Source: Hydra vulgaris (Eukaryota > Cnidaria > Hydrozoa > Anthoathecata > Hydridae). Taken from it: a stretch of DNA of 64,000 nucleotides. Of the stretch, positions 3,915-64,000 are shown one piece after another. Where the stretch lies: NCBI RefSeq assembly GCF_038396675.1, contig NC_088934.1:2748501-2812500 (forward strand), in the 5' to 3' direction. The translations under genes and the position numbers were made by a program. Under the pieces are notes generated by a model. The model was not told the DNA's origin. It worked only from the letters and a program-made list of their open reading frames with translations, and made no database searches. Each line of letters begins with the position of its first letter. The stretch's first letter is position 1.

Positions 3915-5045
3915 GGTTGGAGGTTGGCTGCAAAAGTATTTCCAACTATGTTTACAATGCGTTTTTGCACCTTGTCTCAAAGAGAAAGTGCATCATTCGA
4001 AGATCCGCCTCAGATATGACAACAGTATTCCATACAAGGACAGATTTGAGATTTATAGAAATAAAGAATATAATCCAAAGTAAGAATGTGTCGAGCACGA
4101 TAAAAAGATGCAACCTTAGCAGATGCTAATGTTACAATGGATTTGATATATGGTTTCCAAGAAAGGTCGGAAGTAAGAGTTAATCCTAGAGGATGAAGAG
4201 TGGATGACTCATTGAGTACATTACCGTTCATAAATATAGGAAAATCTAAATTATTGCGATAACGATTGGCTGAAAAATTGAGTTTTATCTGAACTAAAGT
4301 TTACCAGCCACTGTGAACCCCATGCTGTAGCAGTTAGATCTTTTTTTAAGCTCAAATACCTCCTCCAAGCAATCAGAGAGTGTTGACTTCTTATCATGAC
4401 ATAAAATAAATGATAGTGTCATCAGCGAACAATGCCACCTTAGATGTGAGAATATCTGGAAGGTTGTTAATGTAACTTAAAAAGAGTATAGGGCCAAAGA
4501 TTGAACCTTGAGGAACCCCTGAAGTTACAGAATAAGAAGAAGAATGCTGACCATCACGGACAACTTTTATACTACGATTGGAAAGGAAGGATTTGATAAT
4601 CTCAAAGATGTTACCAGATTCACCGTAAGAAGAAATCCTATGGAAAAGACCAGCATGCCAAACTTTATCAAAAGCTTTAGAAATGTCAAGAGCAATGGCC
4701 TTAACCTCTCCACCTTTATCTAATGCACGATAAAACTTATTGGTTATTACTGTTAGCAAATCAGCTGTAGAACGTAAAGATCGAAATCCATATTGATGAT
4801 CAGAAAGTAAGTTATTAGATTCAAGGTGAGAGATTAAATATTTGTTAATTAAAGATTCTAAAACCTTGCTTAGGATAGGAATAAGACTAATGGGACTGTA
4901 GTTAGACGAGTCAGATTGCTTTCCAGAATTTTTGAAAATATGGATAACAGATGCCGCTATTCAGCATGCCGAAAAACAATATTCCGATAAGCACTTGTTA
5001 AATAGTTTTGAAAGTATAGACGACAGCTCTGGAGAACACTTATGC
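3915..5045 (-). pseudogene. LINE reverse transcriptase, degraded
   Basis: Minus-strand reading gives reverse transcriptase motifs in order: NYSPISLIPILSKVLE, HQYGFRSLRSTADLL, KAIALDISKAFDKVWHAGL (first catalytic Asp), SVTSGVPQGSIFGPILFL, and VALFADDTIIYF (catalytic FADD). The block 4759-4394 is open for 121 codons. Downstream (4231-3915) is the LTSDLSWKPYIKSI region typical of the thumb/connection of CR1/Jockey-like LINEs. Several stops and frame changes are present. No endonuclease domain was recognised here. Confidence 0.8.
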
Positions 5046-5876: not shown

Positions 5877-6115
5877 CACAGTGGGCTAGAATTCTATTTT
5901 ACAAGACAAACTAATACCTCCTTATATAAAAAAGATTTAAGGACTATTTTTGCACTGTTTAATATTTTGAGGATTGCGGTTTTAATGGTGAAATTAGTTA
6001 TAACTTTAAAATTGCTATGAATACCTAAATTGCTTAGCAACCATATTTTATTAACCATATAATAAATATAAACTGGAAAAAAGTGGAAGCTTTATCGGAT
6101 GACTCCCAAAACTAC
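5877..6115 (+). mobile_element. MITE-like relic of the RAG1-like transposon family (left end)
   Basis: Begins with CACAGTGGGCTAGAAT, matching the left end of element A (11956). An ACAAAC box follows 22 bp after the heptamer, as in A. The subterminal motif ATTGCTATGAATACC...GCTTAGCAACC (6011-6041) matches the first subterminal repeat of A. No transposase is present. The right boundary is uncertain; a degraded CCACACTG near 6110 may be the other end. Confidence 0.55.
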
Positions 6116-9479: not shown

Positions 9480-10755
9480 TTTTCAGATCTGTTTTTGTTA
9501 CGGATAATGGTATTGCACATGTCTAAGATTTGTCAATACACTCAAGCTCCTTAAATAATGTAATTTTTCCATGCAGCTATGTAGTTTCATCCCTACAAAA
9601 CCTTCCATCAAAGTCTTCCAAATCACCTAATGGATACCCAGCATTACTTCTAAAATCAATTATTAATGCCATTGCTATTCCTTTTCCATACTGTTTTATT
9701 TACAACGTCAAAAAATACCATACCTTTAATCTGGAAAACTACTATTGTGTGCCAGATCTTTAAGAAAGGAAACCCATCATTAACCACAAACTATAGACCT
9801 ATTTCTATGACGAGCATTATTTGTAAACTTAAAGAGTCAATCATTGCAGAATGCATTACACATTACTTACTAATCAACAAAATTATTACCGCTCATCAAT
9901 TTGGCTTTTTAAAGCTTAGGTCCACCAGTACACAGATGTTGACAACCTTAAATGAGTGCATCACTGCTGCTTATAACAAAAAAATAGTTGATATTGTATA
10001 TATAGACTTTGAAAAAGCCTTTGATTCTGTGACTAACTCTAAATTACTGTTCAAACTGCATTGTTATGGTATCCAGTATAAAATGCTAAACTAGGTTACC
10101 ATTTTTTTAACAAATCGTTCTCAATGAGCATGCGTCGGTAACACGTATTCAAAAAAAAATTCTTGAAAAGAGCTAAATACCTCAAGGAAATGTTTTAGGA
10201 CCCATCTTATTTTTAGTTTTTATAAACGATGTAACTTCATGCATTAATGGTGATAGCAGCATAAGTTGTTTGCTGATGACAGCAAGTTATTTCAAGCAAG
10301 CGATGATGGAAACTGCATACACTTTAAAAAAAACCTCAATACCTTAAAAAATTTCGGCAACTTAATATAGCAACCAAAAAATATTTTCATCTACGCTATA
10401 GAAACAGTTCTTTAACATAAAATTCATACTCAATGAACATTGGCACACCTATTGAATCTTTAATTCAATTCAAGATATCGGTATAGTTGTATCTTCGAAT
10501 ATGAAGTTTTCTAATGAACAGTGCACAATCAGTGAACAAGCAATGAATGAACAGTTCCTACTTACTTTTAAAATCCTTCATCAGTAACAATATCAAGCCT
10601 CTGATCAGAGCCAATATAGTTTATGTTCGACCTATTATAGAATCTTGTACCTCTGTAAGGAATACTCATCTTTTAGAAGATTTACGCCGGTTAAAAATGG
10701 TTCAGAAATCTTTTACTAGAAGTGTCTGTAAAAAATGTGGCATTCCTTTTTAAAT
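9480..10755 (+). pseudogene. LINE reverse transcriptase, degraded
   Basis: Plus-strand words in order: KSPNGYPALLLKS, IFKKGNPSLTTNYRPISMTS, ITAHQFGFLKLRSTSTQML, IVDIVYIDFEKAFDSVTNSK (first catalytic Asp) and LFADDSKLFQASDDG (catalytic FADD, near 10270). The C-terminal YVRPIIESCTSV and LRRLKMVQKSFTR end at about 10753. At least four stops and three frame shifts break it. The longest open part is 9666-10094. It is a different LINE lineage from the minus-strand copies, judging by its FEKAFDSV motif. Confidence 0.8.
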
Positions 10756-11950: not shown

Positions 11951-11955
11951 CGCCG
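11951..11955. repeat. Target-site duplication, left copy (CGCCG)
   Basis: CGCCG directly precedes the CAC of element A and recurs directly after its right end at 15306-15310. A 5-bp GC-rich duplication is the known signature of Transib/RAG-type integration. Confidence 0.85.
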
Positions 11956-11993
11956 CACAGTGGGCCAGAATGCACTTTTACTGGACAAAATTC
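11956..11993 (+). repeat. Left end of element A, RSS-like with 22-bp spacer
   Basis: Heptamer CACAGTG at 11956-11962, spacer 11963-11984 (22 bp), then ACAAAATTC at 11985-11993. The heptamer equals the consensus vertebrate V(D)J recombination signal heptamer and the second box shares ACAAAA with its nonamer. Confidence 0.75.
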
Positions 11994-12084
11994 ATAACTA
12001 ATTTAATATTAGAGCTATATTCACTAAAATTAGTATGAGTACTAATATGATGTCTGCGCTTTTTATGAAGGTAATATTTTTTTA

Positions 12085-12275
12085 TTTCGTTGCTATGGAT
12101 ACCTTTATTTTGCTTAGCAACAACCTACTTTTGTTATCTGCAGATATTTTATAAGTGCTATATTCACTAAATTTGGCATGAGTACCAATATGAGATCACA
12201 CTTCTTACAAAAGTGATAATTTTTTAAATTTAGTTGTTATGGATACTTATATTGCTTAGTTACCGGATACTTTCC
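12085..12275. repeat. Left subterminal repeats of element A
   Basis: Two diverged copies of a block of about 145 bp. Each has TATATTCACTAAA, ATGAGTAC.AATATGA and a GTTGCTATGGATACC-like word (12089 and 12233) followed by GCTTAG. The same motif lies inverted near the right end (14601-14637 and 14750-14782). Subterminal repeats are often transposase binding sites; that role is inferred. Confidence 0.7.
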
Positions 12276-12435
12276 TTAGTTACAAAGTGGTAAATTGATA
12301 TTTGAATATCTTATCGGATTTTTGACCCACCTATATTGAATAAAAATTGAGTATTTAGGTAAATAATGTTTTAGGAATAATAAAAGCAAAAAATAGTGCA
12401 AGAAAACGTTATCAATTTTAAATTACATCAAAAAA

Positions 12436-14415
12436 TTATAAAACAATAATATCGTTTGAAGATTGTTTAAGTAATTGTAAAACATCTGAAGGAAATGCTT
12501 TATGATTTGTTTGGTGTGATGTTGATTTACGCAATGATGAAATAACAGGATCACTGGAAACTAGGAGTCTATTGATAAGATCAGTATTTATTGCTTTTCT
12601 GGATGTTTTTCGGCTGAAATTTTCGCGATAAGATTTAAAGTCTTTATTTCTAGCCTCTTGAGCTTCCTCTGACATAAGTCCGATGGGTAATATAAGGCTT
12701 TTAATTATGTCATGTCCATGTATCAATTCTTTGTGAACTGATTGAGCCATGTAATACCATGGATAAAGGGACACATATAATCTAAAAGTGTCAAAACAAT
12801 AATCCTTGAACTTTAAGCAGTCTATTTCATATCCTGAAGAGAGCGTTACCAAGATAATGTAAAATCTGAATATAAGGTTTTGGTCAATACCCAGAATTTC
12901 AGCTATTTGTTCATATGCTGCAAAAGCACGCCTTGAGGTATTGCCATCATTACTTGTTCCAGAACCACCACTTTTAGGGAAATCAACAACAAGTCCCATT
13001 TTGTTCATAAAATCAGTCTGAATCTTTTGTTTAGCTACAGATGCCTTTTCTTTGTGTTCTTTAGATCTTGCTTGCCACTTTCTTGTTTCTTTTTTATATG
13101 CAATGTGCAATAACATCTCAAAAAATCGAATCCATGCATGAAGACTGGAAAGACCATATTTGAACTCTCTGTTAGTATAATCTATATTAAGGATATCAAG
13201 ACTATTTATATTTTTTGGAGAGACACCACACACTGAACAGCATTGGTATGAGTTATTTTTTTCAGATAATATTGTTTGAACCTTCCCATCAATCATTGTA
13301 AGTTCAATAATACAATTCACTTCAATAGAAGATCCGCAAATCTCTAATAAAATCATACCCAAGCTTTCTATCTCACTTTTAATGTACTGATCTTCTTCAA
13401 TCACAGATTCCTTGGATTCCATTTTGTATGCAAATCTTATGGGTGTACAATAGGCTGTGGAGGACGACTTTTGATTTCTCCAAATAGGCACCTTTTCGTT
13501 GCTGTTGTTAAATCCAGTCAAATCCAATGGGACAAGACAAGTAATAAATAATGATTCTTCACGCTTTAAACCTCTGTTAATTTCGGGTTCTGATAAAACT
13601 TGTTTATAAATGCTTCGGCCAGTAGCACCATCAAAACCAGCCTTACACGTTAGTGTCATTGTTTTTATTGCTTTGTCGTTCAATATCAAGTGCCTTAGCA
13701 CAGGTTCCTGAACTGCACAGATTCTTTGCAAAGTATGAGTCATTAAATCTTTTAAAGGAACTGAAGCTGAATAGTCCTCCACTGTTATGTTTGCAGGATA
13801 ACATTTCAATTTTGCATCTCTGACATCATTGTAAGCGGGGTAGATGTTATATTCTTTCTCCAAGGCTCCGCTTCTAATCAATTGATAGGAAGCTTTTGTC
13901 ACACTTGCATCAATTATCAAAGCCAGTGCTTTGTCTGCTGAATATTTAGTTGCTTTATCTGTATTTGATATATTTAAAACATTCTTGGCAGCAATAACAA
14001 CAGATTCATCTCTAAATTTTTTATTAGCAGCAAAAAATAATTCATGGGATGAACGAGATTCAATTAAACAAGATACACGCCGTTTTTTAGTTTTATTAGA
14101 ACTATTATCAAATGCAACTGGTTTTCGACCACGTCTACTTGCAGTTGGTTCATTGTCTTTTTTTCTGACAATTAAATATTCATTAGGCCAGTTCCCAAAC
14201 TTCTTTTCAAAATTTTTCACAGTATAGTTTGCAGATTTCCACTTTTTTTTATACAAGTAAACAAATCGTTGAACAGCATGTCTAAAATCAACGTCTTTAA
14301 AATCAGCAAATTTTGGCTGAATAAATTTTAATATATCTTCAGTAATAATTTGTTTTGAAATACTAAGATTGTTTTTTTGGAGAAAATTATGAATGTCTAA
14401 GTTTAACAAAACCAT
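12436..14415 (-). CDS. RAG1/Transib-like DDE transposase, 659 residues, intact
   Basis: Uninterrupted frame from ATG at 14415. The RAG1 core layout can be followed by eye. First catalytic Asp D262 lies in KAGFDGATGRS (compare CDGMGD of RAG1). Second Asp D376 lies in MIDGKV, followed by a CxxC at 393/396 (CSVCG; RAG1 has CTLCD). LHAW (H426) is followed by the RKWQAR and MGLVVDFPKSG region. Then comes HKELIH (H561, H566; RAG1 HKTLAH) and, 21 residues later, E587 in SEEAQEARNKDFKSYRENF (RAG1 SEGNESGNKLFRRFR). The basic stretch SRRGRKP...KKRR near residues 93-113 may be a nuclear signal or DNA contact. It probably cuts and pastes its own element. RAG1-specific RING/zinc N-terminal parts are absent. 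Family assignment rests on motif matching. A related superfamily such as Chapaev is the main alternative. Confidence 0.82.
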   Translation of the reverse strand: MVLLNLDIHNFLQKNNLSISKQIITEDILKFIQPKFADFKDVDFRHAVQRFVYLYKKKWKSANYTVKNFEKKFGNWPNEYLIVRKKDNEPTASRRGRKPVAFDNSSNKTKKRRVSCLIESRSSHELFFAANKKFRDESVVIAAKNVLNISNTDKATKYSADKALALIIDASVTKASYQLIRSGALEKEYNIYPAYNDVRDAKLKCYPANITVEDYSASVPLKDLMTHTLQRICAVQEPVLRHLILNDKAIKTMTLTCKAGFDGATGRSIYKQVLSEPEINRGLKREESLFITCLVPLDLTGFNNSNEKVPIWRNQKSSSTAYCTPIRFAYKMESKESVIEEDQYIKSEIESLGMILLEICGSSIEVNCIIELTMIDGKVQTILSEKNNSYQCCSVCGVSPKNINSLDILNIDYTNREFKYGLSSLHAWIRFFEMLLHIAYKKETRKWQARSKEHKEKASVAKQKIQTDFMNKMGLVVDFPKSGGSGTSNDGNTSRRAFAAYEQIAEILGIDQNLIFRFYIILVTLSSGYEIDCLKFKDYCFDTFRLYVSLYPWYYMAQSVHKELIHGHDIIKSLILPIGLMSEEAQEARNKDFKSYRENFSRKTSRKAINTDLINRLLVSSDPVISSLRKSTSHQTNHKAFPSDVLQLLKQSSNDIIVL

Positions 14416-14600
14416 ATCTAAATAATTATTGTAACAAGTATTTTGTATTTAAAAGTAAAATGTTATAATATATATGCCGCCTGGACTACTATTACTCGTT
14501 AGTTATTAAGTTACTACAAGTGTTAGTAATTAAAATTAAAAGTAATTAAATTACTGTCAGTGTTAGTAATTAAATTACTAACAGCTACCGAAAATATGTT

Positions 14601-14782
14601 GTTGCTATGTTATGCAAAGTAAGGTATCCATAGTAACCAAAAAAAGTTAACCTCATAAGAATTCTGAATCTCATTTTAATACATACCCCCAATATTGTGT
14701 ATTTAGCGCAAGTAAAATACTGTTAAAACAACGTTAATGTAAAAATGAGTTGTTGCTATGCAAAATTTAGTACCATAGCAAC
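14601..14782. repeat. Right subterminal repeats of element A
   Basis: GTTGCTAT...GGTATCCATAGTAAC (14601-14637) and GTTGCTATG...CCATAGCAAC (14750-14782) are two short interrupted inverted repeats. Each is the mirror image of the left subterminal motifs. Confidence 0.65.
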
Positions 14783-15276
14783 CAAGTTAAAACATACATA
14801 AAATCTGAACGGGGATTTAAGGGGACGAGCAATCAATTAAAACTCGATTGAAGCATCATATAGCTCAAATAAATATAAGATAACACATGGCAAATTGTGG
14901 TAATTATTAGTTATTGTGCGGCAAAAAATAAGTTTCTTAAGAAATTTTTTTTTAATCTGTGATTTTCAAAGTATAACTGAGATAACATGCTATGACAAAT
15001 TGATTTCACACATTGGTTTTTCTTATCTCTAAATACTCTAGAATAACATATACTAATTTTTTGTTTCAAAAACGTAGATGTAATTGAAATATAACACAAC
15101 GTTGATGTCACCGTTAATTACTTATTTATAATTTTTTTTTATTTTAATTTTATCTCAATATTCAAATGCTTAGAGTCCTGGTAACTAAGGGATTTAATAT
15201 AAATAAATTATCAATAGATTTCTCCTAATATATGTAGATACTAAAATTAAATAAGATTAGACAACTAAAATTTTTC

Positions 15277-15305
15277 CCATTTTGTCCACCTACTGGCCCA
15301 CTGTG
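15277..15305 (-). repeat. Right end of element A, RSS-like with 13-bp spacer
   Basis: Read on the minus strand: CACAGTG (15305-15299), a 13-bp spacer (15298-15286), then ACAAAATGG (15285-15277). Compared with the left end, the ACAAAA box is 9 bp closer to the heptamer. Confidence 0.75.
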
Positions 15306-15895
15306 CGCCGTCAGAAATATGCAATCCGTTTAATAAACTTTGCGGATCGAAACACTCATTCCAAACCACTTTTTATTGAAATGAAGGTTCTCAATATTTA
15401 TGAGCTTAATGTTTTTAATGTTTTGTGCTTTATGTATATGTGGAAAAATGACATATCTTTACCCCTTTTTTAAGATCTCTTTTGTTTGAAACCAATAAAT
15501 AAATATACACTTAGAAACAATAATTTTATACATGAGCCCTTTTGTCGAACCAAGTTTAATCAGTTTTGTATTGCATATCGTCCACCCTATCTTGGGAATA
15601 AAATTTTTTTGTCCAATTTCGATATGCATTTTACTTTTCCCATTTTCAAATATAAACTAAAAAATTTAATTATCTCAATGGATTTTTTAATTGTAATTTT
15701 ATACTTTCTTTATAACTTTTATTGGTTATTACGTTTTATTTTGTTGATTATGCTTTGATGTAGTTTATATACACATGCTTGTAAAAGGTTCTGATGATAA
15801 GATCAGTACGATCTTCTTTCAGAAACCTTGTTTGTGTTTGTGAAAGAAATTTATTTACTACGGCAACAAATGTAAACTAAAAAAAAAAAAAAAAG
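15306..15895 (+). pseudogene. LINE 3' fragment with poly-A tail
   Basis: Plus-strand words RRQKYAIRLINFADRNTHSK, PLFIEMKVLNIYELNVFNVL and YRPPYLGNKI are the LINE C-terminal region also seen at 2575-2936. One break near 15470 is followed by a second frame. The shared 3' UTR stem-loop (GGTTCTGATGATAAG...CTTTCAGAAACC, about 15787-15826) is followed by a pure A run at about 15879-15894. The left part is cut by element A. Confidence 0.7.
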
Positions 15896-42325: not shown

Positions 42326-43584
42326 TTTTTTTTTTTTATTATAATTTTTATTAACCTATATTAAAATTTACAATGAAATAAATCGTGTTAATAAATAAGA
42401 GAGCTGGAGCAAGCAGAAGAAATAAACTGTCTTATCATCGAGCCCCATTTACATTGAAAAAATCGTCAGTTTATATACAAAAATGAAAAGTAGCTAAGTA
42501 CATAATAAGAATTTTACACACGTTAGTTACAATATAAATATTAATATAATATAAATATTAGTGTTGAAATATAACGCAATGTATCAAAGATTAACAACAA
42601 CATAAAAGTATTAAAGTTTTTTAACAAAAAAAAATTAAATAAAAATAAAACTGCAACAAAAGTGAAGTAGTGTCAATAACTATTTTTTTTTATGTATTCA
42701 TTTTAAAAGAGATATTTTAAATCAAAGTCATTTTGTAATAAGAGACTCCTAGATTCTTTCCTGAATTGTTTCAAAGAGATATTTTGAATATTATTTTTTT
42801 TGTAATAAATTTTAAAAGGTGTTTCCATAGAAACGGTCCACGGTTTTGGATTTGGTAAGAACTTAGTTTTAAATAAGTTTTTGATACAATAAAGTTGTTA
42901 ATTAAAAATTAAGTTGGAAACTTGTGCGAGATTTCACTAAAGTAAGGCTGAAATACAATAGGAGAAAGCCCATGTTTTATTTTAAACATGAATTGTAGTA
43001 CTTGGTGTATATTAAGTTTATATTTACTTAGAGCATCAAGCTTCCTTAAAAGAGGTTCGCAATGAAAATTTCTGTGTGCACCAAATACAATCCTGCATGC
43101 ATCTTTTTGCTTACTATAAAGTTTTTTTAATTTACTATAATTAGTACTACCCCAAACAATATTACAGTAAGAGATAAAACTATGAATAAATGAAAAGTAT
43201 ATCTTTTTCAAGGAAGCAGTGTTAAGATATGGTTTAGCTTTATATAATATGGAAATATTTATTGAGATTTTATTTTCTATGTATTTTATATGTGGTTTCC
43301 ATGACAAATTTTCATCTAGTATTACTCCTAAAAAATTAATGATTGGTTTCCTTTTAATAAATGTTTTATTGATTAAAAGATTAGGTAATTTTAGAGGAAC
43401 ATCATCACCTTTACTAGGTTCGGAGAATAAAATAATTTTAGTTTTTTCTACATTTAACGAAAGCCTATTACTTGTAAACCACACGTTTATTTTTAATAGT
43501 TCTTCATTAAATATTTTAAAGAGAACTTTTATGTTTTTGTTGGAATAAAAAAAATTGGAGTCGTCTGCAAATAATATAACATTT

Positions 43585-45366: not shown

Positions 45367-45406
45367 CACAAAGTATCGCTTCATATAAGCTAGGTGGACA
45401 AAAATA
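45367..45406 (+). repeat. Left terminal repeat of element B
   Basis: CACAAAG (45367-45373), 24-bp spacer, ACAAAAATA (45398-45406). The heptamer-like box has drifted from CACAGTG at two bases. Confidence 0.7.
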
Positions 45407-45768
45407 TTTTGTTCTGTAATTTAACTCCTAAGAATAAAGTTAACAATAATTTGGTGTATTATTGATTAGTTACGCGGTAGGGTAGCCAGGGGAGGGCAAA
45501 GGGGAAATTATCCCTGGCGCGAAAGCTCAAAGGGGCGCCAAAAAGACAATTTTACTATAAAAAGTAATTTTTTTAATTTTAATGTCAAAAAGGCGATTTT
45601 TGATTATTTTTAAGTTTAAAAAAATTTTAGTAATGAAAAAGTTAAATAAGTAGTAAAAATAAATACTTAATTTCAGCACTAAATTATGTAATAAAATTTT
45701 TCCTAAAATAAAAATTTACTCGCTAAAATTAAGCTAATAACTTAAAAAAAAACTTTATTTATTAACTA

Positions 45769-47829
45769 TTAATTATCATCGGATGAATCATTGTTGTTTT
45801 CACTATCCGAAGAATCGGACCCTAAATAATCTTCATCGTCACACATAATTCTATTTTCAACAAGCTGTGGTGGTATTATAGGTGGGACAATTAAATTCAA
45901 AACTTCCAACGGTAATTTACCAGTTTTCTTACATGTTAATTCTCTATGTAAGTTGATTACAGGATCTGATGTTACCAAAAGCATATTGAGCAAATCTATA
46001 TTTGTGCAAATACGTGAATTTTTTCTTGTATGGTGTTCGCGGAATCGACGAAAATCTTTACTGCGGGCTTCTTGAGACTCTTCCGATAGTTGTCCAATCG
46101 GAAGAAGGCATGTTTTTATAACTTCCGTGCTATGTACAAGTATTTTGTGCACAGTAACAGGCATATAGTACCACGGATATAAATTAATATAAAGAGTTTT
46201 GGTTTCAGAACAAAATTTTTCAAATGCACAATAGTTAATATCAAAGCCAGAGGAAAGTGTTCTTAATAAAATACTGAAATTTTTAATAAGATTGACGTCT
46301 AAACCAGTAATTTCTCCACTTAACTCTGGCTTCAAAAAAAACCTGCGAGCTGTGTTCCCATCATTTGTATTCCCAAAGTCAGGTTTTGGTTTATCTACAA
46401 TAAGTCCCATATGCTTTTTAAATTTTTGTTTGATGTCTTCTGAGCGTTTTTGGACACTAGCTTTATCTTCTTCGCTTCTAGCTTGCCACTTTTTTAAATC
46501 TAAACGATAGCTAATGTGTAACATGCACTCAAAAAAACGAATCCACGCATGCAAAGTAGATAGACCAAAGCTATAATGTTCTTTTTTAACAACTAAGTCT
46601 TTTATTTCACCGTTCATCATTTTAGGAGTCGCACCACATATGTAACATTTTTGTTGGGAACTTGTGTCAGTCAAAGCATTGCAAACTTTTCCATCAATCA
46701 TTGATAGTATTAGGTCGTGTTTAACAGTAATTTGAAGTTCACCGAGTCTTATAGATGTTAGGACAAGTTGAGATACTTCTTTTAAAACTTGGTTAGTTTC
46801 TTTTTTAGTTAAAAGATTTGTTTCTTTTGAAAAAATAAATTTGATTGGTCGGCAATAAAGTGTAGATGAAGGACGTGGATTTTGCCAAATAATATTTTGG
46901 CCGTCACTCAGTCTCAACGGAACAAATGAAAATACAAACAGAAACTCATCAGTAGGATCAGAGTTTGTAAATCTTTGTTTATATGTGCTGTGACCTGAGC
47001 TCCCATCACATCCCCATATGCTTAATAATGTTAATGGCGTATTAAAAGTAATATTTTTAAGAACTTCGCATTTGGCTTCAAATAAGCGTTCAGTAGTTTT
47101 ATCAAGTATAGCTTGTAGGTTAATTTCGGCACGTGTTTCTGTAATAAAAATATGTTCATCTAATGGATAACATAACTTTTTTGACTTGCATAGACTATAA
47201 TAAGATGGAAATACTATATGCCCTGCCTTCAAAGACCACTTTCTCGTCTGTTTATAAGAATGACTTGTACATTTAGACTCAACGTAATAAGCTAATGCCT
47301 CGTCACGATTCAACTGCCTACCACCACAAATAAAGTCTTTTGAATTTATTTTTTCTGATGATTCTAGACTTTTTCTGATTAAAGTAGCTTGGTTTCTGTG
47401 CCCCGACGCACAACATGCTATTTCAGCAGCTGTAGTCAATTCAGTTGCACTTTGCAATTTTACTAAGTTTTCCAGCCTTCGTTTTTTGGTTTTAAACGAC
47501 GAGTCTTCAAAGTTCTTTTTGGGCCATCCTTGAATTCCTCCAGTTGGTGAAAAAGTGCATTGCTGATGTATACTTATTTCAAATTCTACATCTGCTCCCT
47601 CTAACCAAATTTTATTTTTGTTTAAAAAACGGTCCATCATCATATATGCTTCTGACCATTTTATTGCGAATTTTGAAGCTATACATGAAATTTTTAACTG
47701 CAAAGACCTCTCAGAATCTCTAGTCACATTAGTTACATCAGTAACACAAAATCTTTGCAAAATAAAATCTAATAAAAGAGAATTTCTTTCTTCTTGATTA
47801 TGTCTTCGCCATTCTTCAAATAACTCCAT
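45769..47829 (-). CDS. RAG1/Transib-like DDE transposase, 686 residues, intact
   Basis: Uninterrupted frame. The first in-frame ATG is at 47829 (MELFEEWRRHNQ); upstream codons are open only to 47847 and contain no ATG, so I chose this start. Numbered from it: first Asp D275 in WGCDGSSGHS, second Asp D379 in SMIDGKV, CxxC 395/398 (CYIC), H427 in LHAW, HKILVH at 561-566, and E587 in SEESQEARSKDFRRFREHH. The same residues in the same order occur in the transposase at 12436-14415. The two share SLYPWYYM/NLYPWYYM, GLSxLHAWIRFFE and SNDGNTSRR/TNDGNTARR, yet are widely diverged elsewhere. The C-terminus ends in an acidic tail (DEDYLGSDSSDSENNN) that A lacks. Expected role: transposition of element B. 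No RAG2-like partner is present. Confidence 0.82.
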   Translation of the reverse strand: MELFEEWRRHNQEERNSLLLDFILQRFCVTDVTNVTRDSERSLQLKISCIASKFAIKWSEAYMMMDRFLNKNKIWLEGADVEFEISIHQQCTFSPTGGIQGWPKKNFEDSSFKTKKRRLENLVKLQSATELTTAAEIACCASGHRNQATLIRKSLESSEKINSKDFICGGRQLNRDEALAYYVESKCTSHSYKQTRKWSLKAGHIVFPSYYSLCKSKKLCYPLDEHIFITETRAEINLQAILDKTTERLFEAKCEVLKNITFNTPLTLLSIWGCDGSSGHSTYKQRFTNSDPTDEFLFVFSFVPLRLSDGQNIIWQNPRPSSTLYCRPIKFIFSKETNLLTKKETNQVLKEVSQLVLTSIRLGELQITVKHDLILSMIDGKVCNALTDTSSQQKCYICGATPKMMNGEIKDLVVKKEHYSFGLSTLHAWIRFFECMLHISYRLDLKKWQARSEEDKASVQKRSEDIKQKFKKHMGLIVDKPKPDFGNTNDGNTARRFFLKPELSGEITGLDVNLIKNFSILLRTLSSGFDINYCAFEKFCSETKTLYINLYPWYYMPVTVHKILVHSTEVIKTCLLPIGQLSEESQEARSKDFRRFREHHTRKNSRICTNIDLLNMLLVTSDPVINLHRELTCKKTGKLPLEVLNLIVPPIIPPQLVENRIMCDDEDYLGSDSSDSENNNDSSDDN

Positions 47830-48345
47830 TTTTGAAAAAGAGCGCACATGATCTAAAAGAAATTTAATAACAAAAAATTGTGGATTTATGTGGTGAAAAT
47901 TTTTACATCGTTGTACACCTTAGGACTTTAGCTATACACTGTTAAAAAATTAGCTTGGATACATGTGGATACAAAAAGTTGTATAGGTTTCAAAATTAAA
48001 AACATAAAAAGATTTTACAATTTTAGCGCAGTTTTTCAAATCAAGTTTTAACACATATTGCTTCTCTTTTGAATAAAATATTTAATGTAATTAAATAGTA
48101 TTTACCCTCTAAAGTAAAATCCATCGTTGCATTAAAATGATTGCTTTCTGTAATTCCTGATTAATCGTATTGCAAACGCTGTAAATTTGAACTAAATTTT
48201 TTCAAAATTGGAATTACATTTTAATGTCTTTTTAATTGCTTATGACTCATTGCTCTGAAATGTTTTTCATAATTAACACCGCAAGTTATTACCAATGCGG
48301 AACTGTTATTGTGAAAATATTATCAGTTAGTTGATTTCTTGATAT

Positions 48346-48385
48346 GACTTTTGTCCACCTAGCTTGTATAAAGCGATACACTGTA
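48346..48385 (-). repeat. Right terminal repeat of element B
   Basis: Inverted reading: TACAGTG (48385-48379), 24-bp spacer, ACAAAAGTC (48354-48346). It matches the left end over most of the spacer. Confidence 0.7.
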
Positions 48386-49386: not shown

Positions 49387-49880
49387 CACAGTGGGCACGA
49401 ATTGTCTAAAAATGGCAAAACTATTTATGGGTTAAATCTAGACATATGATACACTTTTATAGAGGTTTTAGGGGCCAAGGATTTGATTTTTGGACTCCAT
49501 TTTAATTTCGGAGTAGTAATGACCACACAAACGGTCATTTTAGTGGAGGTCAAGGGCTGTCCTGAGATGTAAAGATGTTTTTCAATTAAATGGTACATTT
49601 TGTATGTATAAATGTTGGTAATTGTGGTAAGGGAATTTAAAACTGGACATATTTGGTCTTCACGAGTGGTTATGACCGCTTAGGTGATCATTTTAGGGGT
49701 GGTCAAGGGTGGTCTTTGAGTTTCCCGATAGTTTTTCAATTAAATGGTTCATGTTGTATGTAATTGATATCAGGTAAATTAAATCTGTATATATTTTGAC
49801 TCCGGGAATGGTTATGATCGCACAGGTAGGTGTGGTCATGGGTTGTTAAGACATTTTCGTGATTTTTATTTATTTTATGT
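49387..49880 (+). mobile_element. CACAGTGGGC-ended element with internal repeats (partial)
   Basis: Starts CACAGTGGGCACGAAT at 49387, with a CAAAAC box 22 bp after the heptamer. The interior holds three diverged units of roughly 150 bp sharing GACATAT, ACTCC..., GGTTATGACCGC, GTGGTCAAGGGTGG and TTTTTCAATTAAATGGT (about 49440-49590, 49635-49765, 49775-49860). The right end was not found. Confidence 0.5.
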
Positions 49881-59350: not shown

Positions 59351-62300
59351 TCAAGTAATTAAACAACTCGTATAATATTTTTCTAAATTATTCAAACACA
59401 TTGCAATATTATGTTTTGCTTTCGTTGTAGACGGATGGTTGATACCTAAAATTTCAGTTTGTATTTTCTCAACAGAATAATAAATTTCTAAGGCTTCGTT
59501 ATATTTTCCCATATTGTTCAAACAGAGTGCGATATTATGTTTTGTTGTCATTGTAGACGGATGGTTGATACCTAAAATTTCAGTTTGTATTTTCTCAACA
59601 GAATAATAAATTTCTAAAGCTTCATTATATTTTCCCATATTGTTCAAACAGAGTGCGATATTATGTTTTGTTGTCATTGTAGACGGATGGTTGATACCTA
59701 AAATTTCAGTTTGTATTTTCTCAACAGAATAATAAATTTCTAAAGCTTCGTTATATTTTCCCATATTGTCCAAACACCTTGCGATATTATGTTTTGTTGT
59801 CATTGTAGACGGATGGTTGATACCTAAAATTTCAGTTTGTATTTTCTCAACAGAATAATAAATTTCTAAAGCTTCGTTATATTTTCCCATATTGTCCAAA
59901 CACCTTGCGATATTATGTTTTGTTGTCATTGTAGACAGATGGTTGATACCTAAAATTTCAGTTTGTATTTTCTCAACAGAATAATAAATTTCTAAAGCTT
60001 CGTTATATTTTCCCATATTGTTTAAACAGAGTGCGATATTATGTTTTGTTGTCATTGTGTCCGGATGGTTTATACCTAAAATATCAGTTTGTATTTTCTC
60101 AACAGAATAATAAATTTCTAAAGCTTCGTTATATTTTCCCATATTGTCCAAACACCTTGCGATATTATGTTTTGTTTTCATTGTAGACGGATGGTTGATA
60201 CCTAAAATTTCAGTTTGTATTTTCTCAACAGAATAATAAATTTCTAAAGCTTCGTTATATTTTCCCATATTGTTTAAACAGAGTGCGATATTATGTTTTG
60301 TTGTCATTGTGTCCGGATGGTTTATACCTAAAATATCAGTTTGTATTTTCTCAACAGAATAATAAATTTCTAAAGCTTCGTTATATTTTCCCATATTGTT
60401 CAAACACCTTGCGATATTATGTTTTGTTGTCATTGTAGACGGATGGTTGATACCTAAAATTTCAGTTTGTATTTTCTCAACAGAATAATAAATTTCTAAA
60501 GCTTCGTTATATTTTCCTATATTGTCCAAACAACTTGCGATATTATGTTTTGTTGTCATTGTAGACGGATGGTTGATACCTAAAATTTCAGTTTGTATTT
60601 TCTCAACAGAATAATAAATTTCTAAAGCTTCATTATATTTTCCCATATTGTTCAAACAGAGTGCGATATTATGTTTTGTTGTCATTGTAGACGGATGGTT
60701 GATACCTAAAATTTCAGTTTGTATTTTCTCAACAGAATAATAAATTTCTAAAGCTTCGTTATATTTTCCCATATTGTCCAAACACCTTGCGATATTATGT
60801 TTTGTTGTCATTGTAGACGGATGGTTGATACCTAAAATTTCAGTTTGTATTTTCTCAACAGAATAATAAATTTCTAAAGCTTTGTTATATTTTCCCATAT
60901 TGTCCAAACACCTTGCGATATTATGTTTTGTTGTCATTGTAGACGGATGGTTGATACCTAAAATTTCAGTTTGTATTTTCTCAACAGAATAATAAATTTC
61001 TAAAGCTTCGTTATATTTTCCCATATTGTCCAAACACCTTGCGATATTATGTTTTGTTGTCATTGTAGACGGATGGTTGATACCTAAAATTTCAGTTTGT
61101 ATTTTCTCAACAGAATAATAAATTTCTAAAGCTTCGTTATATTTTCCCATATTGTTTAAACAGAGTGCGATATTATGTTTTGTTGTCATTGTGTCCGGAT
61201 GGTTTATACCTAAAATATCAGTTTGTATTTTCTCAACAGAATAATAAATTTCTAAAGCTTCGTTATATTTTCCCATATTGTCCAAACACCTTGCGATATT
61301 ATGTTTTGTTTTCATTGTAGACGGATGGTTGATACCTAAAATTTCAGTTTGTATTTTCTCAACAGAATAATAAATTTCTAAAGCTTCGTTATATTTTCCC
61401 ATATTGTTTAAACAGAGTGCGATATTATGTTTTGTTGTCATTGTGTCCGGATGGTTTATACCTAAAATATCAGTTTGTATTTTCTCAACAGAATAATAAA
61501 TTTCTAAAGCTTCGTTATATTTTCCCATATTGTCCAAACACCTTGCGATATTATGATTTGTTTTCATTGTAGACGGATGGTTGATACCTAAAATTTCAGT
61601 TTTTATTTTCTCAACAGAATAATAAATTTCTAAAGCTTCGTTATATTTTCCCATATTATTCAAACAGAGTGCGATATTATGTTTTGTTGTCATTGTAGAC
61701 GGATGGTTGATACCTAAAATTTCAGTTTCTATTTTCTCAACAGAATAATAAATTTCTAAAGCTTCGTTATATTTTCCCATATTGTTCAAACACCTTGCGA
61801 TATTATGTTTTGTTGTCATTGTAGACGGATGGTTGATACCTAAAATTTCAGTTTGTATTTTCTCAACAGAATAATAAATTTCTAAAGCTTCGTTATATTT
61901 TCCTATATTGTCCAAACAACTTGCGATATTATGTTTTGTTGTCATTGTAGACGGATGGTTGATACCTAAAATTTCAGTTTTTATTTTCTCAACAGAATAA
62001 TAAATTTCTAAAGCTTCGTTATATTTTCCCATATTGTCCAAACAGAGTGCGATATTATGTTTTGTTGTCATTGTAGACGGATGGTTGATACCTAAAATTT
62101 CAGTTTCTATTTTCTCAACAGAATAATAAATTTCTAAAGCTTCGTTATATTTTCCCATTTTGTTCAAACAGAGTGCGATATTATGTTTTGTTGTCATTGT
62201 AGACGGATGGTTGATACCTAAAATTTCAGTATCTATTTTCTCAACAGAATAATAAATTTCTAAAGCTTCGTTATATTTTCCCATTTTGTTCAAACAGAGT

Positions 62301-64000
62301 GCGATATTATGTTTTGTTGTCATTGTAGACGGATGGTTGATACCTAAAATTTCAGTTTCTATTTTCTCAACAGAATAATAAATTTCTAAAGCTTCGTTAT
62401 ATTTTCCCATATTGTTCAAACACCTTGCGATATTATGTTTTGTTGTCATTGTAGACGGATGGTTGATACCTAAAATTTCAGTTTGTATTTTCTCAACAGA
62501 ATAATAAATTTCTAAAGCTTCGTTATATTTTCCTATATTGTCCAAACAACTTGCGATATTATGTTTTGTTGTCATTGTAGACGGATGGTTGATACCTAAA
62601 ATTTCAGTTTTTATTTTCTCAACAGAATAATAAATTTCTAAAGCTTCGTTATATTTTCCCATATTGTCCAAACAGAGTGCGATATTATGTTTTGTTGTCA
62701 TTGTAGACGGATGGTTGATACCTAAAATTTCAGTTTGTATTTTCTCAACAGAATAATAAATTTCTAAAGCTTCGTTATATTTTCCCATTTTGTTCAAACA
62801 GAGTGCGATATTATGTTTTGTTGTCATTGTAGACGGATGGTTGATAACTAAAATTTCAGTATCTATTTTCTCAACAGAATAATAAATTTCTAAAGCTTCG
62901 TTATATTTTCCCATTTTGTTCAAACAGAGTGCGATATTATGTTTTGTTGTCATTGTAGACGGATGGTTGATACCTAAAATTTCAGTTTCTATTTTCTCAA
63001 CAGAATAATAAATTTCTAAAGCTTCGTTATATTTTCCCATATTGCTCAAACAGAGTGCGATATTATGTTTTGTTGTCATTGTAGACGGATGGTTGATACC
63101 TAAAATTTCAGTTTGTATTTTCTCAACAGAATAATAAATTTCTAAAGCTTCGTTATATTTTCTCATATTGTTCAAACAGAGTGCGATATTATGTTTTGTT
63201 TTCATTGTAGACGGATGGTTGATACTTAAAATTTCAGTTTGTATTTTCTCAACAGAATAATAAATTTCTAAAGCTTCGTTATATTTTCCCATATTGTTTA
63301 AACAGCTTGCCATACTACATTTTGTTGTCATTGTGTCCGGATGGTTGATACCTAAAATTTCAGTTATTATTTTATCAACAGAATAAAATGCTTTTAATGC
63401 TTCGTTATATTTTCCCATATCGCCTAAACAGGTTGCCATATTATGTTTTGTTGTTATTGTATCGGGATGGTTGTTATCTAGAATTTCAGTTTCAATTTTC
63501 TCAACAGAATAATAAATTTTTAAAGCTTCGTCATACTTTCCCATACTCATTAAACAGCCTGCCATATTACGTTTTGTTGTCATTGTGTCCGGATGGTTGA
63601 TACCTAAAATTTCAGTTTGTATTTTCTCAATAGAATAATAAATTTTTAAAGCTTCGTTATATTTTGCCATATCGTCCAAACACTTTGCAATATTATGTTT
63701 TGTATAAAGCGTGTTTTTATTATTTTCACCATAAGTTTCTGAATTAAAACTTTGAATATATTTTAATATTTCGAATGCTTCTTCAAATAAACCTTTGCAT
63801 ACTAATAATTTATGAATAGAAGTTGTCCTATTATGGAAGGTTTCCGAAAATCTCTTTCTGTTTGTACGAAACATATAGATAAAATGGAAAACAAAATGAT
63901 TTCCGCAATCCATGTGATCTTTTACGTCATTTAATTCAACTTTAAAATAATTTTCGAGTAAACCAAGATATGTATTTATACTTGAATTTCTCTTTTGAAA
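59351..64000 (-). CDS. Long TPR-array protein (kinesin-light-chain-type TPR), N-terminus outside the window
   Basis: The frame is open from the right edge (64000) to the stop at 59351-59353: 1,549 residues. The ATG at 63913 need not be the start because 29 codons upstream are open (LGLLENYFKVELNDV). Visible parts: about 80 non-repeat residues, then 35 TPR units of exactly 42 residues, consensus NHPSTMTTKHNIALCLNNMG then KYNEALEIYYSVEKIQTEIL. The first four units are diverged (NTLYTKHNIAKCL, MAGCL, MATCL, MASCL), the rest nearly identical, and the last degenerates (MCLNNLEKYY). NHP.T....N.A.CL...GKY.EAL is the kinesin-light-chain/nephrocystin type of TPR, a protein-binding superhelix. In cnidarians such arrays often follow an NB-ARC or NACHT domain in NLR-like receptors, so such a domain may lie upstream; this is inference. 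No membrane segment or signal peptide is visible in this part. Confidence 0.85.
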   Translation of the reverse strand, partial: FQKRNSSINTYLGLLENYFKVELNDVKDHMDCGNHFVFHFIYMFRTNRKRFSETFHNRTTSIHKLLVCKGLFEEAFEILKYIQSFNSETYGENNKNTLYTKHNIAKCLDDMAKYNEALKIYYSIEKIQTEILGINHPDTMTTKRNMAGCLMSMGKYDEALKIYYSVEKIETEILDNNHPDTITTKHNMATCLGDMGKYNEALKAFYSVDKIITEILGINHPDTMTTKCSMASCLNNMGKYNEALEIYYSVEKIQTEILSINHPSTMKTKHNIALCLNNMRKYNEALEIYYSVEKIQTEILGINHPSTMTTKHNIALCLSNMGKYNEALEIYYSVEKIETEILGINHPSTMTTKHNIALCLNKMGKYNEALEIYYSVEKIDTEILVINHPSTMTTKHNIALCLNKMGKYNEALEIYYSVEKIQTEILGINHPSTMTTKHNIALCLDNMGKYNEALEIYYSVEKIKTEILGINHPSTMTTKHNIASCLDNIGKYNEALEIYYSVEKIQTEILGINHPSTMTTKHNIARCLNNMGKYNEALEIYYSVEKIETEILGINHPSTMTTKHNIALCLNKMGKYNEALEIYYSVEKIDTEILGINHPSTMTTKHNIALCLNKMGKYNEALEIYYSVEKIETEILGINHPSTMTTKHNIALCLDNMGKYNEALEIYYSVEKIKTEILGINHPSTMTTKHNIASCLDNIGKYNEALEIYYSVEKIQTEILGINHPSTMTTKHNIARCLNNMGKYNEALEIYYSVEKIETEILGINHPSTMTTKHNIALCLNNMGKYNEALEIYYSVEKIKTEILGINHPSTMKTNHNIARCLDNMGKYNEALEIYYSVEKIQTDILGINHPDTMTTKHNIALCLNNMGKYNEALEIYYSVEKIQTEILGINHPSTMKTKHNIARCLDNMGKYNEALEIYYSVEKIQTDILGINHPDTMTTKHNIALCLNNMGKYNEALEIYYSVEKIQTEILGINHPSTMTTKHNIARCLDNMGKYNEALEIYYSVEKIQTEILGINHPSTMTTKHNIARCLDNMGKYNKALEIYYSVEKIQTEILGINHPSTMTTKHNIARCLDNMGKYNEALEIYYSVEKIQTEILGINHPSTMTTKHNIALCLNNMGKYNEALEIYYSVEKIQTEILGINHPSTMTTKHNIASCLDNIGKYNEALEIYYSVEKIQTEILGINHPSTMTTKHNIARCLNNMGKYNEALEIYYSVEKIQTDILGINHPDTMTTKHNIALCLNNMGKYNEALEIYYSVEKIQTEILGINHPSTMKTKHNIARCLDNMGKYNEALEIYYSVEKIQTDILGINHPDTMTTKHNIALCLNNMGKYNEALEIYYSVEKIQTEILGINHLSTMTTKHNIARCLDNMGKYNEALEIYYSVEKIQTEILGINHPSTMTTKHNIARCLDNMGKYNEALEIYYSVEKIQTEILGINHPSTMTTKHNIALCLNNMGKYNEALEIYYSVEKIQTEILGINHPSTMTTKHNIALCLNNMGKYNEALEIYYSVEKIQTEILGINHPSTTKAKHNIAMCLNNLEKYYTSCLIT
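59354..63763 (-). repeat. 126-bp coding tandem repeat, 35 units with higher-order structure
   Basis: Units follow without indels. Order on the coding strand shows larger duplications: units 7-11 repeat as 12-16 (same pattern NKM, NKM/DNM, ASCLDNI, ARCLNNM), and units 19-22 repeat as 28-31 (TDILG...HPD alternating with HPSTMKT). Differences cluster in a few codons. Confidence 0.95.

Follow-up and report, generated by a model that had tools for sequence, protein, structure and literature searches.

In studies of how adaptive immunity originated, an open question is how one enzyme came to require two differently spaced DNA signals, and a transposon of Hydra vulgaris raises it anew: are its unequal ends a lasting property of its family, and does its transposase rely on the inequality? 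The element lies in a window of 64,000 nucleotides (the whole stretch of DNA that was analyzed; contig NC_088934.1, positions 2,748,501 to 2,812,500) and belongs to a Transib family that we call A (Table 1). A heptamer of the CAC type, CACAGTG, is present at both termini, as the original prediction had stated and as direct reading of the sequence bore out, and 13 bp (CACAGTGGGCCAG) make up the inverted repeat proper. The nonamer-like box that had been predicted 22 bp from the heptamer on the left and 13 bp from it on the right was found in place by direct reading, in other copies, and in a genome scan. A RAG1-like transposase had been named as the sole gene of a transposon without RAG2, and this held as well; the element contains one long open reading frame, which matches Transib, and no second gene, whether RAG2-like or a convergent RAG2L. 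The predicted 5-bp duplication of CGCCG is real, and its description as GC-rich fits the window copy only, the usual duplications in family A being ones like CAATG, CGTTG, and CAGCG. The unequal ends, which resemble vertebrate recombination signal sequences (RSS), are confirmed as real, and the element is very probably a cut-and-paste Transib with truly bipartite, asymmetric ends.

Thirty loci, with the window copy as L001, were gathered with a transposase search. Both ends are complete in 25 of them, and the left and right spacers are 22 and 13 bp in 24 and 22 and 14 bp in one (L025); at L011 the left spacer is 22 bp in the sequence, the value of 2 given by the script being an artefact. One end was not located in each of L006, L007, and L015 within this 30-locus set, and L021 is without a left heptamer. 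The left end of L020 is short by 8 bp, which leaves 14 bp between its box and an altered heptamer, and its duplication, CGTTG, matches by eye. Equal spacers were not found in the other copies of the family, one locus of the 30 (L020) having a deleted left end, and the constancy of spacing expected of independent copies was observed, most of them carrying their own 5-bp duplications. Of the 27 loci for which the script located both ends (wrongly on the left in L020), 22 have the same target-site duplication on the two sides. Duplications of 5 bp are general to Transib elements, and family A behaves likewise. Searching with exact end motifs yielded 22 full copies, which are about 99% identical to one another (the window copy averages 98.7% against the others), and an open reading frame of exactly 659 amino acids is retained in 17 of the 30 loci. 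At least 67 near-complete copies exist, 43 of them without an internal stop in a count made by eye. Family A is young and recently mobile.

The spacing was also examined in the whole assembly (911,502,276 bases in 15 contigs) by scanning for the pattern CACAGTGGGCCAG-N0..30-ACAAAAT, which leaves the spacing free, with the reversed pattern as a control. There were 1062 exact matches against 0 in the control. Among the 100 matches listed, the spacer was 22 bp in 57 and 13 bp in 40, with 16, 23, and 24 bp occurring once each; the asymmetric spacing exceeds chance. One locus of family A is peculiar in its flank. At L016, the left heptamer is bordered by the left end repeated in inverted orientation (GCATTCTGGCC-CACAGTG-GGCCAGAATGC), there is no matching duplication, and the copy looks as though it were sited at, or copied onto, another end.

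Table 1. Positions of the Transib elements in the window and of the parts of the family A copy
Feature	Positions	Strand	Length	Details and basis
Family A Transib copy (L001)	11956-15305		3350 bp	CGCCG on either flank
Left target-site duplication CGCCG	11951-11955	.		Same as 15306-15310
Left heptamer CACAGTG	11956-11962	+		Read from sequence
Left spacer (GGCCAGAATGCACTTTTACTGG)	11963-11984	+	22 bp	Sequence read, copies, genome scan
Left nonamer-like box ACAAAATTC	11985-11993	+		Sequence read, copies
Subterminal direct repeats	12007-12253	+		44-nt and 33-nt units, 143-144 bp apart
Transib transposase gene, intact	12436-14415	-	659 amino acids
Right nonamer-like box ACAAAATGG	15277-15285	-		Sequence read, copies
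Right spacer (GGCCAGTAGGTGG)	15286-15298	-	13 bp	Sequence read, copies, genome scan
Right heptamer CACAGTG	15299-15305	-		Read from sequence
Right target-site duplication CGCCG	15306-15310	.		Same as 11951-11955
Second Transib, family E	45367-48385	-		Ends CACAAAG-24-ACAAAAATA and TACAGTG-24-ACAAAAGTC

Part of the subterminal repeats recurs inverted near the right end of the element, at 14616-14645.

The asymmetry is not confined to family A. Family B has left ends like those of A and a right end of the form GGCCAGTGACTGG-ACAAAAGTA, the interior of which differs from that of A. Its scan gave 260 matches, 100 of them listed, against 0 in the control, and 24 of the 25 listed on contig C1 were used for pairing; their spacers were 13 bp in 17 and 24 bp in 4, with 10, 15, and a nested 28 bp once each. 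The left ends of family C, scanned with free spacing (98 matches, all listed; control 0), have spacers of 24 bp in 90, 22 bp in 7, and 29 bp in 1. Family C is older, with two of its copies 84% identical. The ends of family D are CACAGTG-24-ACAAAACCT and CACAGTG-13-ACAAAACCT, and its scan returned 154 matches (100 listed; control 0). Its transposase is broken in both copies that were read, by an in-frame stop in L084 and by a split into separate frames in L085, and these two copies are 98.6% identical. The two flanking duplications match in L037 (B), L083 (C), L084 (D), and L085 (D), but not in L082 (C). The four families form two groups, A/B and C/D, since A and B share their left ends and C and D resemble each other at the right end, with 70% identity across 191 bp. 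Moving the box one base earlier, to GACAAAACC, gives the right ends of C and D spacers of exactly 12 bp and the left ends of D spacers of 23 bp, so that families C and D stand at 23/12 and the window family at 21/12, in a register that was picked after the fact. Two further observations concern these families. In L084, an apparent intron (GT...AG) at about 819-887 lies just before TSNDGN in the transposase, where family A is uninterrupted. Three left ends of family C, each with a spacer of 22 bp, lie about 15.0 kb apart (G000:C12:28922528, 28937534, and 28952567), which suggests a 15-kb tandem repeat carrying a Transib end at those sites.

Two other families in the same genome, E and F, have symmetric ends. 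The window copy of family E has altered heptamers, a 692-amino-acid open reading frame at 45769-47847 on the minus strand with a GTG start, and no matching duplication flanking it. A looser pattern was used to scan for E and F, and the spacer was 24 bp in 50 of the 100 matches listed. Convergent pairs among these matches were 24/24 in 9 of 11, with one 24/20 and one 24/29, and 7 of 8 fetched 24/24 pairs carried identical duplications. In the transposase core, A and D share 64% amino acid identity, and all the remaining comparisons (A-E, D-E, and each of A, D, and E with HzTransib, the Transib of Helicoverpa zea) fall at 40 to 43%. The asymmetry thus groups A with D, the outgroup E being symmetric and the ends of HzTransib being described as symmetric (PMC8289069).

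Is there, then, a rule that joins a long end to a short one? Convergent ends within 10 kb of each other were paired among the matches listed. All 83 within-family pairs of families A to D (31, 8, 28, and 16, respectively) are long-short, and none joins two ends alike. Family A contributes L22/R13 pairs of 3.0 to 3.6 kb; family B, 22/13 pairs on C1 of 1.3 to 3.7 kb; and family D, 24/13 pairs of 2.8 to 3.0 kb. The family C pairs, all 24/13, were made between the 98 left ends and 57 short ends (56 from the 154-match scan and one from the 260-match scan); 23 measure 1.5 to 3.9 kb, and the other five, at 4.6 to 9.0 kb, may be chance or nested. Excluded from the 83 were a 7.9-kb pair made of a long end of the B type and a short end of the A type and an 8.4-kb pair of short ends from two families. 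The persistence of the long-short arrangement in two groups is mild support for a pairing rule, and a preference for long-short pairs, judged from sequence, is plausible at odds that we put somewhat short of even.

The explanation that survives best against such a rule accepts that the ends are bipartite and that the box is used and holds that any two ends would cooperate, the asymmetry being an inherited accident of one founder end. We give it close to an even chance. Shared descent within families and the kinship of A with B and of C with D would explain uniform long-short pairs, the symmetric 24/24 families move in the same genome, and HzTransib too is described with symmetric ends. Against it, the long-short arrangement has been kept in two groups whose transposases, represented by A and D, have diverged to 64% of the core, and elements with two long or two short ends number zero in the 83 within-family pairs among the matches listed. 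The lone short-short structure, L061, lacks a proper duplication, and over its full length nothing but itself was matched. L061 (G000:C1:26877590-26877905) has two 13-bp ends and is palindromic, and of the 40 candidates scored in a search with it, most matched a half of about 127 bp. It was rejected as a moved short-short element, on its inverted flanks and unique full length, and taken as an inverted duplication. In L061 and L102, which have 13-bp-type ends of a family H, the flanks look inverted (ACAGATC...GATCTGT and TTCTACAGCT...AGCTGTAGAA) and are not direct duplicates; L102 (G000:C3:50879900-50880480), the one candidate place that was read besides L061, has internal tandem repeats and one 13-bp end. 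A second end of family H was not found on reading these two places.

The short end would have been derived from the long end by loss of 9 to 11 bp, about one helical turn, from the middle of the spacer, because the relatives E and F in the same genome are symmetric at 24/24; the direction of change, loss and not gain, is a matter of parsimony. A single-block deletion that turns the long spacer into the short one fits 12 of 13 positions in D (11 bp lost), 12 of 13 in B (9 bp), 11 of 13 in A (9 bp), and 10 of 13 in C (11 bp), and shuffled sequences reached the same fit in 348, 13, 199, and 213 of 5000 cases, respectively. The boldest form of the idea is that Hydra Transib transposases enforce a 12/23-like long-short rule without RAG2 and that this rule was born within their lineage, through the loss of about one helical turn from one end of an ancestor that had been symmetric at 24/24. 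We consider it unlikely. If true, the origin of the 12/23 rule would have been replayed here, one genome still having both the symmetric and the asymmetric forms and family D standing at exactly 23/12 to the GACAAAACC box.

Several points weigh against bipartite ends joined under such a rule. L020 has its box at 14 bp with a matching duplication, which is most simply a later deletion. The symmetric families transpose too, and the pattern behind E and F has a real background, with 30 matches in the control against 202 in the scan. Long-short pairs are expected without any rule, because the copies of each family share one founder, and the odds of a pairing rule are weaker because A/B and C/D are two groups and not four independent families. 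Family A is 22/13 and is not 23/12 in either register. The boxes differ after ACAAAA (TTC, TGG, GTA, and CCT), the deletion fit is only modestly better than that of shuffles in A, C, and D, and the likeness of the transposase to the RAG1 nonamer-binding domain (NBD), which centers on a GRP motif, is weak by sequence and co-linear only, at -0.3 bits.

A second alternative is that only the terminal 13 bp (CACAGTGGGCCAG) matter and that the ACAAAA box is no recognition element, which we regard as improbable. The inverted repeat proper of the window element is of just that length, and invertebrate RAG-like complexes have been proposed to depend mainly on the terminal 15 to 17 bp (PMC7204232). In the right ends of A, B, C, D, and H, however, identity is 100% in the heptamer, the six bases after it, and the box, against 64% in the spacer core (positions 14-20) and 50%, then 34%, past the box; among the 24-bp ends of families C, D, E, and F, heptamer and box do not vary, and the spacer core has 33% identity. 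This agreement is inflated, as the box was required in the searches that yielded some of the ends, including the right ends of C and H. It was not required in those that yielded the right ends of A, B, and D, the left end of C, and the window copy of E, and in these too the box distance has stayed fixed though the spacer and interior diverged. In E and F, the bases past the heptamer differ and the box is kept, the search having required the box in all but the window copy. An A-rich, nonamer-like box thus recurs at near-constant distance from the heptamer in the copies, in the genome scan, and in the sibling families, and the possibility that the ACAAAA box would prove unconserved was not borne out.

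A third alternative concerns the class of the element, which could be a RAG-like (RAG1L-RAG2L) transposon that lost RAG2L instead of a Transib. The 659-amino-acid protein matches HzTransib (structures 6pqn and others) across residues 155 to 649 with an E value of 4.9e-102 and about 43% core identity, sharing its transposase core, and the solved HzTransib chain matches only from residue 155 on, past the NBD-like stretch. C393/C396 and H561/H566 fit RAG1-type zinc ligands by position, which we take them to be. With the numbering offset worked out in the analysis, D262, D376, and E587 align with D126, D225, and E436, the catalytic residues of HzTransib (PMC6941560). A profile built from the proteins of families A, D, and E found RAG1 weakly (best E value, 0.00076), with the matching stretches in the same order, and the family E transposase weakly matches Pfam RAG1 (E value, 0.0012, under its cut-off), which is what favors a RAG-like origin. 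A Pfam search of the family A protein gave no usable match, and a single-protein search of viral and prokaryote contigs found no relatives. The element is classed as a Transib on these protein comparisons, because the HzTransib match is strong, RAG1 is found only weakly (E value of about 1e-3), and there is no second gene; the identity as a RAG-like transposon was rejected on the latter two grounds and is very improbable. Least likely of all, with practically no chance of being right, is the caution attached to the original prediction, that the ends reflect chance resemblance or a simple indel in a single copy; both were rejected, the 22/13 spacing standing in 24 of 25 complete copies and the genome holding 1062 matches against none in the control.

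In a cut-and-paste Transib with bipartite, asymmetric ends, the transposase core would bind the heptamer and cut there by nicking and hairpin formation, as HzTransib and RAG are known to do, and the N-terminal GRP-containing stretch, as a counterpart of the RAG1 NBD, would grip the ACAAAA box. The transposase dimer would then synapse one long-spaced and one short-spaced end. In family A, the motif is GRKP at residue 96, inside the NBD-like N-terminal stretch; it aligns with GGRPS in D and GWPK in E, and in the profile of all three it lines up co-linearly with GGRPR of the RAG1 NBD at the score given above.

Asymmetric Transib ends as such are known. Their supposed novelty did not stand, as ends of 12/23 (+/-1) have been reported for Transib5 of Drosophila melanogaster and for Transib2, N1, N2, and N3 of Anopheles gambiae (PMC8355894, citing earlier work), and a survey that includes Hydra has been published (Tao et al. 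2022; PMC9435367). The fly and mosquito families have the asymmetry in common with family A and differ in host, and they are likened here by their published description. In the survey of Tao et al., Subgroup I Transibs are all asymmetric and Subgroup II includes both kinds, both subgroups have an NBD containing GRP, and H. vulgaris Transib-7 and -9 appear in the alignment. Family A may be one of these, and the main text gives no spacer lengths, copy counts, or pairing test for the Hydra families (PMC9435367). The vertebrate RSS has CACAGTG, an A-rich box, and two spacers about one helical turn apart, as do families A to D; the vertebrate 12/23 system differs from the window family, which is 22/13 and without RAG2 and is likened to it from genomic sequence. 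The symmetric ends described for HzTransib show little or no nonamer similarity (PMC8289069), in contrast to the asymmetric, box-bearing ends of family A. Bipartite asymmetric ends are also found in ProtoRAG of amphioxus (27/31) and in the algal AanRAGL (4/13) (PMC8289069, PMC9435367), and ProtoRAG is reported to prefer asymmetric pairs (PMC8289069). Both carry RAG2L and a second element that is not ACAAAA-like, unlike family A, which has the ACAAAA box and no RAG2. CMC-Transib is among the putatively active elements of the H. vulgaris AEP haplotype (PMC12220107), and autonomous Transibs are said usually to occur in one or a few copies (PMC4411706). In the open-licence literature consulted, neither pairing at the level of copies nor a series running from 24/24 to 24/13 in a single genome was described. 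Here, the asymmetry recurs in many copies and in sibling families.

The window holds other features of note. At 5877-5922, a left-type Transib end (CACAGTGGGCTAG, a 22-bp spacer, and a degraded box, ACAAACTAA) is followed by a similar GCTATG-ATACC subterminal stretch; a pattern search of the window found no right end for it, and it may be a relic or an undescribed relative. A second candidate Transib end, at 49387-49425, has the heptamer CACAGTGGGCACG and an AAAAC stretch about 22 bp on. An open frame of 1549 amino acids on the minus strand (59351-64000), open at the window end, encodes numerous tetratricopeptide repeats that are almost identical to one another (Pfam TPR_12, 29 stretches). Fragments of Tc1/mariner-type transposase and of LINE (long interspersed nuclear element)-type reverse transcriptase were recognized by eye at 1455-1970, 4394-4759, 9666-10094, and 42909-43484, and Pfam searches of the first and last of these gave no match.

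One organism thus offers long and short ends, intact family A transposases, and symmetric families as controls for testing a 12/23-like rule without RAG2. With the asymmetry repeated across copies and sibling families, Hydra is well suited to testing how the 12/23 rule originated.

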